64,000 bases of DNA. Origin: Barnesiella sp. WM24. Lineage in GTDB: Bacteria > Bacteroidota > Bacteroidia > Bacteroidales > Muribaculaceae. Below the pieces are notes generated by a model, which was given only the letters and a program-made list of their open reading frames with translations, was not told the DNA's origin and did no database searches. Position 1 is the stretch's first letter. Every line of letters begins with the position of its first letter. Where the stretch lies: assembly GCF_004570975.1 (NCBI RefSeq), contig NZ_SPPC01000012.1, positions 1 through 64,000 of the forward strand. The letters are read 5' to 3'. Positions 58,929-61,357 of the stretch are shown here, piece after piece. The translations under genes were made by a program, and so were the position numbers.

Positions 58929-59033
58929 TTAAATCACCCGCTTGACCGCCCCGTTCTCGTAGACCACCGGGCAGGATAAGTCGAGTGTGTCACGGCGTAG
59001 CCTGGTATTGAGTATTCGAAAAATATTATCCAT
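58929..59033 (-). pseudogene. RHS-core remnant
   Basis: A 34-codon frame ends LDLSCPVVYENGAVKRVI. The segment YENGAVKRV resembles the RHS core of Bacteroidetes RHS proteins, where this string lies well upstream of the tip. No RHS sequence continues on either side. It is best read as a scrap of a former RHS gene. Its ATG overlaps the end of the lipoprotein gene by 8 nt, but I see no sign that it is functional. Confidence 0.5.
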
Positions 59034-59541
59034 GGCAATCGACGAGATAATATACAAAAGTAAATACATATTGTTTTGCGGCATCAACATAATGGAGGCG
59101 ACCGCTATTTAGTAGAGATAAATTGTTTACATGGTCTAAAATACTGTCAGTAAACTCTTCTTGTGAAGAATATAGCTTTCTATATGTAGGAGTCAATATT
59201 TTATCGTTTTCACAATCTTTTTTCTCCTCATAGCTTTTATAGCGAATAACAAGAGCCTTATTCAAAACATAAAGATTGCTGTCAAGGCAAACTTCGCATA
59301 TAACAGTAATGTTACCATTGATTTCTTCAGGAAAAGAGTCTATACATACATGAAATCTTTTATGCGACATTATTGAATCTGCTGCATTATTATAAATTTC
59401 ATTTAAGTCAGCATGGGAATACATAATTCCGTATTCATTTTGCCCATAATCAGATGTATTATCTGATGGTCTATTCATTGAGCATGAGACATTCAGTAAG
59501 GCACAATGTATTAGAAATATTATTATTTTGAATTTATCCAT
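59026..59541 (-). CDS. Small exported protein, candidate immunity to RHS tip 1
   Basis: The 171-residue protein has an N-terminal hydrophobic segment followed by a Cys at residue 20 (LNVSCSMN), an imperfect lipobox, so it may be a lipoprotein. The mature part is acidic and Tyr-rich, with no family I recognise. Its start overlaps the end of the metallopeptidase tip by 19 nt, the arrangement expected for a toxin-immunity pair. An immunity role is inferred from position only. Compared with the second pair, the sequences share little but have matching length and exported layout. Confidence 0.65.
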   Translation of the reverse strand: MDKFKIIIFLIHCALLNVSCSMNRPSDNTSDYGQNEYGIMYSHADLNEIYNNAADSIMSHKRFHVCIDSFPEEINGNITVICEVCLDSNLYVLNKALVIRYKSYEEKKDCENDKILTPTYRKLYSSQEEFTDSILDHVNNLSLLNSGRLHYVDAAKQYVFTFVYYLVDCHG

Positions 59542-60056
59542 GGTGAGTACTTTGTTAATAATGAGGTCAGTAGTGGCTGGGATTTTAAATAGTCGGGATA
59601 AGAATCATATATCCTGCTATTATTTGCAGCAGCTCCTTCTTTAAAAGAAATAATGCCAAGAATATTCTTATAATAAGAGTATCTTGTGCTGAGTGATGAA
59701 ATTGCATCATGATATAACCTTCCAAAGATATTATTTTCACCTACCATTGCTCCCGATGAAAACATAAGGTTATCGGAAAGTTCATTGGCATTAATGCTGA
59801 TTGCTGCTTCAAACGCGTAGGCTTCTACTTCATTGAATATTGCGCGTCCACCTTGTCCGTTAAGGAACTGTCCGACGTGCATCGATTCGTGGACTATAGC
59901 GGAGATAAAACCATTTCTGTCCAATGCCTGGTTAAGGTATATCTTGGCGTCACCAAAGTATTCACATTCGGGGGTGTACATGAAGTCGTTGAACCATACT
60001 TCCATTCCTGTCGGGTCGGTGTTGTTGACGGGGTCGTTGGCGCAGAATTCATTCAT
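59523..60056 (-). CDS. Orphan RHS tip 1 with HExxH metallopeptidase domain
   Basis: The 177-residue protein begins inside the RHS core: MNEF then CANDPVNNTDPTGMEVW, the usual RHS-repeat-associated end. The tip that follows carries VHESMHVGQF, a zinc-protease HExxH, and 13 residues further FNEVEAY with a possible third ligand (EVEA). A variable tail ends IYDSY and LLTKYSPW. The first 80 or so residues are about 95% identical at DNA level to tip 2. The upstream RHS barrel is missing, so this is an orphan tip. It may be a toxin or a recombination donor; which one is not shown. Confidence 0.72.
   Translation of the reverse strand: MNEFCANDPVNNTDPTGMEVWFNDFMYTPECEYFGDAKIYLNQALDRNGFISAIVHESMHVGQFLNGQGGRAIFNEVEAYAFEAAISINANELSDNLMFSSGAMVGENNIFGRLYHDAISSLSTRYSYYKNILGIISFKEGAAANNSRIYDSYPDYLKSQPLLTSLLTKYSPWINSK
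59803..60047 (-). repeat. Direct repeat in RHS tip 1
   Basis: About 245 bp match 60882-61126 with about 13 differences counted by eye. The repeat covers the end of the RHS core and the HExxH region. Outside it the two tips diverge sharply. Confidence 0.85.
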
Positions 60057-60104
60057 TTTCGCAGTATTGGAGAAAAAAGTTGAACATATAATAACGGTAA
60101 TTTA

Positions 60105-60629
60105 TTAGGGGTGGGTATCATTACAACTGTTTTTTATGGGGACAACGTCATAATAAAAGGATAGCCCAATTACTCCGGCATGTTCAAATTCGTTAAGTGT
60201 GCATTGTGCCCTTTTCTTAATGACGGCTGGTACATTCATCTGTTTACGCCAATTAAGACATCTGGCATACTCACGTGCTACAATAGAATCAATTCTCAGT
60301 TTGGTCTCAGTTGAAATATCCTGTTGGTGGATTGTCGTTTTTTCAAAATTTGTTTTTTCATCATATATATATACCACTCTTATTATTTCATTCATTTTTG
60401 TATAAATAATCAATTTCATATTGGATGCTCCCATCTTGCGTGTTCCCTCCTAATCATAAAATTCCTGCCAAACAACTCGATATATGCTATCGGTAGAATT
60501 CATAGTATCCGTTATCGTTGATTTTTTACCTGCAATTTGCTCACACAATATCGCAGAATCATCTTGTTGGCAATAAGACGCCAAGATACACTTAAATAAT
60601 ATTAATGACACAACTATCAATCTTACCAT
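60105..60629 (-). pseudogene. Candidate immunity gene of tip 2, broken by TAG
   Basis: A start at 60629 overlaps the end of tip 2 by 7 nt. The frame gives a signal-like N-terminus (MVRLIVVSLILFKCILASYC, Cys20) and 59 residues to EFYD, then a TAG at 60452-60450. The same frame continues with EGTRKMGASNMKLIIY to the next stop at 60105. Read through, it would be about 174 residues, like the 171-residue gene of tip 1. A downstream ATG at 60434 opens a 109-residue piece. It could be a nonsense mutation, or two short genes. Confidence 0.6.
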
Positions 60630-61303
60630 GGTGAATATTTTAAAAGTATTGACTTTATATTATTATGATATAATTGACGGCTATTTGGCATAAATGAATA
60701 GGAATCATATATTCCACTATTATTGGCACTTGCTTCTCTCGTAAAGACAAACATGGCATTTGTAAAGTGTTCTTTAGAATAGCCCGACAGTAATTGATTC
60801 ATTGAATTCACGTATCTATTCTCACCCGACAAAGCTCCAGAATTAAAAGGCGTTTCTAAGTCAAAACTTATTAATGACGTAGCTGCTTCAAATGCGTAGG
60901 CTTCTACCTCGTTAAATATTGCGCGTCCACCTTGTCCGTTAAGGAACTGTCCGACGTGCATCGATTCGTGGGCTACAGCGGAGATAAAACCATTTCTGTC
61001 CAATGCCTGGTTAAGGTATATCTTGGCGTCACCGAAGTATTCACATCCGGGAGTGTACATGAAGTCGTTGAACCATACTTCCATTCCGGTTGGGTCGGTG
61101 TTGTTGATGGGGTTGTTGGCGCAGAAGAGGTAGGGTGTCTGGGTGCGTGCATGGAAGTCATATATGTTGAGCCCGTACATGGCGTCCAGCTCCTTGCCCC
61201 CGAACTTGTAGGGCTGCACCGAGGCGCCTTTCCACGCGTCGGCAAACGTCAGTCCGTAAGGGTAACAGTGGTTGTGTCTGGAAGAGAAGAGAGGCGTTTT
61301 CAT
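60623..61303 (-). CDS. Orphan RHS tip 2 with HExxH metallopeptidase domain
   Basis: The 226-residue protein starts inside the RHS core (CYPYGLTFADAWKG, SVQPYKFGGKELDAMYGL, then CANNPINNTDPTG), so it lacks the long barrel and any secretion signal. The tip has AHESMHVGQF (HExxH) and FNEVEAYAFE. The tail differs from tip 1 except for ANNSGIYDSY and the end LLKYSPW. A good promoter lies just upstream, so the fragment could be expressed as it is. It is overlapped by its candidate immunity gene. Toxin activity is inferred. Confidence 0.75.
   Translation of the reverse strand: MKTPLFSSRHNHCYPYGLTFADAWKGASVQPYKFGGKELDAMYGLNIYDFHARTQTPYLFCANNPINNTDPTGMEVWFNDFMYTPGCEYFGDAKIYLNQALDRNGFISAVAHESMHVGQFLNGQGGRAIFNEVEAYAFEAATSLISFDLETPFNSGALSGENRYVNSMNQLLSGYSKEHFTNAMFVFTREASANNSGIYDSYSFMPNSRQLYHNNIKSILLKYSPW
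60882..61126 (-). repeat. Direct repeat in RHS tip 2
   Basis: Partner of 59803-60047, 1079 bp away. The high identity implies recent duplication or gene conversion. Confidence 0.85.
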
Positions 61304-61325: not shown

Positions 61326-61357
61326 CAAATATATTGTTTTGTGTATGAATTTGCAAG
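61326..61357 (-). promoter_or_regulatory. Promoter directly upstream of RHS tip 2
   Basis: Minus-strand CTTG (61357-61354), a 20-nt spacer and TATATTTG (61333-61326) end 22 nt before the ATG at 61303. The spacing fits a short leader of about 15 nt. Confidence 0.6.

Follow-up and report, generated by a model that had tools for sequence, protein, structure and literature searches.

HopH1-like metallopeptidases are listed among the toxins of RHS proteins, including those of Bacteroidetes and those with Sec/T2SS (type II secretion system) export (PMC3482391). For Tox-HopH1, the table of that 2012 polymorphic-toxin survey gives no immunity protein; the survey assumed a mainly cytoplasmic site of action for its immunity proteins, and Imm65 is the only lipoprotein immunity in its collection. 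Exchange of toxin cassettes and orphan arrays are already known (PMC3482391; PMC8125069), as are Sec-signalled Bacteroidetes toxins with diverse immunity, the TANFOR proteins (PMC7073777). Here we describe a small array of orphan RHS tips, each with a zinc-peptidase motif and each overlapped by a short gene, in Barnesiella sp. WM24 (contig NZ_SPPC01000012.1, positions 1 to 64,000; this whole stretch of 64,000 nt is called the window below). Judging from the sequences, the array probably consists of displaced C-terminal toxin-immunity modules of an RHS polymorphic-toxin system that is Sec-exported and independent of the type VI secretion system (T6SS).

The array is read on the minus strand in the order tip 1, partner 1 (two pieces), tip 2, partner 2, third RHS scrap:

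60623..61303, minus strand: tip 1, a scrap of RHS core fused to an M91-like HExxH tip, 226 residues, HESMH at 60956-60970
60450..60629, minus strand: partner 1, piece 1, 59 codons with a hydrophobic N-terminus, ending at an in-frame stop
60105..60434, minus strand: partner 1, piece 2, 109 codons open from the next ATG, in the same frame as piece 1
59523..60056, minus strand: tip 2, an M91-like tip preceded by about 14 residues of RHS core, 177 residues in all, HESMH at 59877-59891
59026..59541, minus strand: partner 2, an intact open reading frame of 171 residues with a predicted signal peptide, possibly a lipoprotein
58929..59007, minus strand: third RHS scrap, of which 58933-58997 is 94% identical to an RHS gene of this genome located on contig C12
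60870..61126, minus strand: near-identical block of unit 1, with 93% DNA identity to 59790-60047 of unit 2

The initial annotation of this DNA had described two units of the same layout (a truncated RHS core, an HESMH tip with a downstream E-V-E-A and an overlapping gene) followed by a third RHS scrap, and this anatomy stands. In both tips NEVEAY lies downstream of HESMH (codons 60913-60896 in tip 1), the overlaps with the partner genes are 7 nt (tip 1-partner 1) and 19 nt (tip 2-partner 2), and the DPxG junction is present as DPTG directly upstream of the variable tip. The Rhs_assc_core model scores 24.5 bits on tip 1, under its cut-off of 32.5, and gives an E of 0.36 on tip 2. The array is not a chance assembly, since the units match each other (93% identity over 258 bp) and the tip of C12 (90-95% in pieces of 98-154 bp); a further match joins unit 1 to the end of the C12 gene (73% over 116 bp). 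The exported partner of about 170 residues that had been ascribed to each unit is found intact in unit 2, whereas partner 1 is split by its stop into 59 and 109 codons, and both units look broken, unlike their earlier description. The stop of partner 1 overlaps an AGGAGG run before the next in-frame ATG (60434-60452), so that a restart of the second piece is conceivable.

The described system nearest to the tips is Tox-HopH1/Peptidase_M91 (PF14891), likewise an HExxH zinc peptidase at an RHS tip and homologous by profile in the N-terminal half; the present tips differ from it in a distinct C-terminal half with GQGG-NEVEAY, and they are mostly followed by an exported gene, whereas the survey table lists no immunity there (PMC3482391). 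Imm65, found with Tox-JAB-1 (PMC3482391), is an exported, lipobox-bearing immunity protein beside a Bacteroidetes RHS toxin, but the toxin here is a different one, and neither Pfam nor NCBIfam, libraries in which the presence of Imm65 was not checked, matches partners 1 and 2 above cut-off. The C-terminal displacement arrays of orphan RHS 3' ends (PMC8125069) share the truncated core, tip and immunity gene and their origin as recombination leftovers; the arrays treated there are mainly T6SS effectors, while here the RHS proteins are Sec-signalled and the array lies off the contig of the full-length gene. TANFOR proteins (PMC7073777), also Bacteroidetes toxins of large size with a Sec signal, have variable tips and neighboring immunity genes of diverse sequence, but they have their own N-terminus, whereas the full-length proteins of C12 and of locus L013 match RHS models (L013 in NCBIfam only, the presence of a TANFOR model in the libraries being unchecked).

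No full-length RHS gene was seen in the window stretch examined, as had been noted, but such a gene with this tip lies elsewhere in the genome, on C12; it begins with a signal-peptide-like stretch, contains HESMH, and its 2016 codons are still open where the contig ends. A second full-length RHS protein with this tip, of 2075 residues, is encoded by L013; thus the tip does occur on full-length RHS proteins, whereas its never doing so had been named with the annotation as a refutation. The L013 record is labelled Phoenicibacter, which we take to be an actinobacterial name, yet its RHS locus is Bacteroidales-like, and the record is probably mis-binned. A Sec-type signal was found in 18 of 19 full-length RHS genes (C12, L013 and 17 hand-picked long-frame genes from the list of Rhs_assc_core loci; L085 fails) by a permissive rule that takes the best score of every Met within the first 110 residues. 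A neighbor with an export signal accompanies nine of the 13 testable full-length genes, and is absent for L091, L093, L095 and L098. The T6SS sheath models PF05943 and PF17541 have no match in this genome; PF17541 matches two of 60 members of the order, taken as a control, and is therefore able to detect a T6SS in this order.

The assignment of the tips to a peptidase family goes through their relatives. Both window tips have the HExxH zinc motif of Peptidase_M91/Tox-HopH1 in the form HESMH; the N-terminal half of the Peptidase_M91 domain is incomplete in them, about 50 residues being missing from both that are kept in C12 and seven other relatives. Among these eight complete relatives, L041 alone exceeds the Pfam cut-off for M91 (25.2 bits against 25), L042, L015 and L014 score below it, and for the tips of L013, L043, L045 and C12 M91 gives no match up to an E of 0.1. 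A profile-profile comparison of the tip family with M91 gave a probability of 98.5 over the N-terminal half. By these comparisons, the tip is a predicted divergent branch of Peptidase_M91 (HopH1-like). The sole Pfam signal for the window tips is a match to DUF6782 below its cut-off. Kinship with clostridial neurotoxin light chains, considered from a fold match, was rejected with all Z scores below 8 (thermolysin, 7.3).

The damage is also apparent in other features. Scrap 1 additionally lacks 20 residues of the RHS core relative to C12. A structural model built from an alignment of five rows with a complete relative at its head reached a predicted local distance difference test (pLDDT) of 80.4 and a predicted template modelling score (pTM) of 0.85, whereas the same five loci with tip 1 leading gave a pLDDT of 46.0 and a pTM of 0.39; this contrast between models is suggestive of a damaged tip. 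Searches in other collections yielded little: the PDB sequence search with tip 1 returned no matches at E up to 1, viral contigs held no relatives among 53 pattern matches, phage records had no match, plasmid records had one that covers positions 11-84 of the query only and is mostly RHS core, and PADLOC matched none of four proteins.

The two halves of the tip are conserved to different degrees. Between the units, identity is 96% in the N-terminal half and 43% in the C-terminal half (36 of 84 residues); against C12 the values for each unit are 80-82% and 28-49%, and between genomes the gap is smaller (27-56% and 12-52%). In unit 1 the DNA match runs as far as 60870, a little beyond the NEVEAY codons, and in unit 2 as far as 59790, so that it ends soon after the zinc-site codons. 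In the 65 codons shared by units 1 and 2 there are six synonymous and three nonsynonymous changes; over 52 codons compared with C12 the respective numbers are seven and four for unit 1, and 14 and one for unit 2. We read this mosaic as the trace of recombination that would homogenize the catalytic half while the C-terminal half and the partner vary; the alternative is diversifying selection on the C-terminal half. Pairing of C-terminal half and partner is favored by L015 and L041, which have the most similar C-terminal halves and related partners. As a tentative extension, which may well prove wrong, we suggest that exchange among M91-like tips is confined to a C-terminal "specificity" lobe and the immunity gene that goes with it, recombination between copies keeping the catalytic half homogeneous and the joint falling within the catalytic domain immediately past the zinc site rather than at the edge of the domain, all within a Sec-exported, T6SS-independent RHS system of kin competition in Bacteroidales whose immunity proteins are exported as a rule. 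From the abrupt shift in identity within the tip follows a testable claim about the portion of the toxin that its immunity protein recognizes.

How common exported partners are was estimated at nine tip loci in which the catalytic motif, the C-terminal half and downstream DNA are all present (both window units, L013, L014, L015, L041, L042, L043 and L045). Twelve other genomes of the order matched the tip; the L050 match lies in a methylase-like gene, and L046 and L049 have partial tips only. A match in L016 was dropped as antisense to another open frame. In all nine loci a gene on the same strand starts between 19 nt before and 12 nt after the end of the tip, and in eight of them its product has a signal peptide according to a hydropathy heuristic. 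The exception is the broken partner 1, which apparently fails due to an internal Lys. For the three clear M91 tips, the partner has an export signal in every case. Among close same-strand downstream genes, drawn from this window and eight stretches of congeners only, 11 of 35 pass the same heuristic, and the tip loci differ from this background (p 0.003). The expectation that candidate immunity genes next to these tips carry export signals is thus upheld by a crude rule.

The same pattern extends beyond this tip. The control of Bacteroidales Rhs_assc_core ends comprised 33 loci, namely the best match from each of 30 of the 65 genomes having one, together with L010-L012; four were dropped (L012, L072 and L075 run off, and L060 is too near the end). 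An export-signal partner is present in 22 of the 29 testable loci, so RHS ends of Bacteroidales in general often have an exported partner; three of the 29 (L009, L010 and L011) come from the window's own genome, and L084 and L086 are also in the full-length set. The loci that do not pass are L054, L055, L058, L063, L068 and L069, and L009, where the crude gene caller found no gene. An exported partner as a marker of this particular tip was accordingly rejected (8/9 against 22/29, p 0.38). Finally, at five weak family-level profile matches, the next gene passes in four and fails in L125.

In contrast to their position, the partners have little in common in sequence. Both pieces of partner 1 resemble C36a, an intact exported protein of 164 residues encoded on contig C36. 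Partner 2 has weak matches in 13 of 294 other genomes (E 0.004-0.048), which we read as chance, with no convincing relative in these 294. Four pairs of partners are related (L015-L041, L014-L043, L044-L048 and partner 1-C36a), and no convincing homology between partner groups was found beyond them; with the first 20 residues removed, the best comparison of partner-family profiles, between a tip partner and a control partner, had an E of 0.0099 and a probability of 4%. Because of this scant mutual homology, co-occurrence of one partner family with the tip, another proposed check, is not established, and what does recur is an export-signal gene after the tip (8/9). In position and export signal the partners resemble immunity genes, and we regard them as candidate immunity genes.

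The flanks of the array and its upstream region contain the following features:

63676-61592: outer-membrane receptor-like gene flanking the array (called by eye)
61326..61356, minus strand: promoter pattern TTG-N18..22-TAnnTTTG upstream of tip 1, weak, with 18 such matches in the window; we take the pattern to be the Bacteroides-type consensus
58885-58253: gene for an exported protein of 210 residues beyond scrap 3, adjoining a fumarase-like gene

The 210-residue protein could be another orphan partner, or unrelated. A fumarase gene is present in 13 of 14 members of the genus, with the present genome counted, and about 8 kb upstream of it in eight congeners there is no match to the tip, partner 2, the 210-residue protein or the receptor; by this comparison the array site is variable. 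Other contigs of the genome also carry RHS pieces. Contig C36 (L019 4271-6100) has three consecutive genes for exported proteins of 164, 183 and 184 residues, the first being the relative of the broken partner 1, while the second and third share 51% identity; a short RHS scrap lies on either side of the third gene; no tip match was found on this contig, and the row looks like an orphan or poly-immunity locus. Directly before it (L019 1767-3933) are genes that appear phage-tail-like by eye; in the last of these the C-terminal part resembles variable lectin-type domains. Near the end of contig C22 (L018 7506-7589) lies an RHS scrap of 84 bp that shares 93% identity with the beginning of unit 1. 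Contigs C6 and C10 (L020, L021) have another three RHS ends, whose core looks different: one has an HEFGH tip and no partner was found for it, and the other two are followed by export-signal genes.

In the working form of our proposal, an RHS protein of about 2000 residues with a signal peptide and an M91-like zinc peptidase tip would leave the cell; in a neighbor without the matching partner, an envelope or periplasmic protein would be the substrate of the tip. The immunity protein would be the product of the small gene that overlaps the tip, and it would be exported because the toxin is proposed to pass through the periplasm and act there. Recombination in the conserved DNA of the RHS core and catalytic half would swap tips and leave old modules behind as scraps, and the two window units, with no signal peptide, truncated tips and one broken partner, would be such leftovers. 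They are probably silent as toxins; if useful at all, they may serve as donors of C-terminal halves and partners or, in the case of partner 2, as orphan immunity. Several observations weigh against this proposal. Up to an E of 1, Pfam gives no Peptidase_M91 match for the window tips themselves. In unit 1, the core scrap differs from C12 by four synonymous and six nonsynonymous changes over 47 codons, an apparently weaker sign of constraint than in the tip. The partners of L014 and L043 are related and their C-terminal halves just 27% identical, contrary to the expected pairing. Partner 2 has no convincing relative, so its cognate pairing is uncheckable by family co-occurrence, and, as the C12 contig ends inside the tip, the partner of the C12 gene is not visible.

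Two other explanations of the array deserve serious attention. The units could be decaying, functionless copies in which tip 2 and partner 2 are open only by chance; the in-frame stop of partner 1, the loss of about 50 residues common to both tips, the poor model of tip 1 and the absence of the array upstream of fumarase in the eight congeners with a fetched stretch all fit this, and we consider it quite possible, if somewhat short of an even chance. However, both tips and partner 2 are still open and in frame, and the changes between the catalytic halves of the units are mostly synonymous, though this constraint could predate the displacement. Alternatively, the array may be kept as partner 2, and formerly partner 1, protects from RHS toxins of kin, the tips being passengers. 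Orphan immunity has been discussed for related systems (PMC8125069), partner 2 is open with an export signal, and C36 offers a row of three exported genes with RHS scraps and no tip, one of them the relative of partner 1; at the same time, no toxin is known with a matching C-terminal half and partner 2 lacks a convincing match in the 294 other genomes, so that we incline slightly against this explanation as well.

Action of the tips inside the producing cell or on an animal host, rather than on rival bacteria, would agree with the absence of signal peptides from the orphan reading frames and with the injected pathogen effectors among M91/HopH1-like peptidases (PMC3482391). It is nevertheless improbable, as a small same-strand gene adjoins the tip in 9/9 loci, as expected of self-protection, while missing immunity genes are taken, in a passage on OTU-type toxins, as a mark of eukaryote-directed ones (PMC3482391). 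Delivery by a T6SS, the route of many RHS toxins elsewhere (PMC8125069), is more improbable still, given the genome without a sheath-model match and the Sec-type signals on the full-length proteins.

Displaced modules of a Sec-exported RHS system are thus our preferred explanation, and the undescribed toxin-immunity class that had been suggested is not supported: the tip appears to be a divergent M91/HopH1-like peptidase, a class already among RHS toxins (PMC3482391), and exported partners are frequent at other RHS ends of the order. The layout is known, and for toxins of this kind few descriptions of an exported protector exist; in the open-licence PMC literature, no title or abstract opening on this tip with exported immunity was found, which does not imply its absence from print. 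Our analysis appears to contribute candidate immunity genes with export signals next to an M91-like RHS tip, an estimate from few loci of how often they occur, and an identity break located within the catalytic domain. Should export of the partner prove general among Bacteroidales RHS toxins, as the 22 of 29 loci of this small sample may indicate, a large number of bacteria from the gut and the environment would be competing in the periplasm, through a non-T6SS route.
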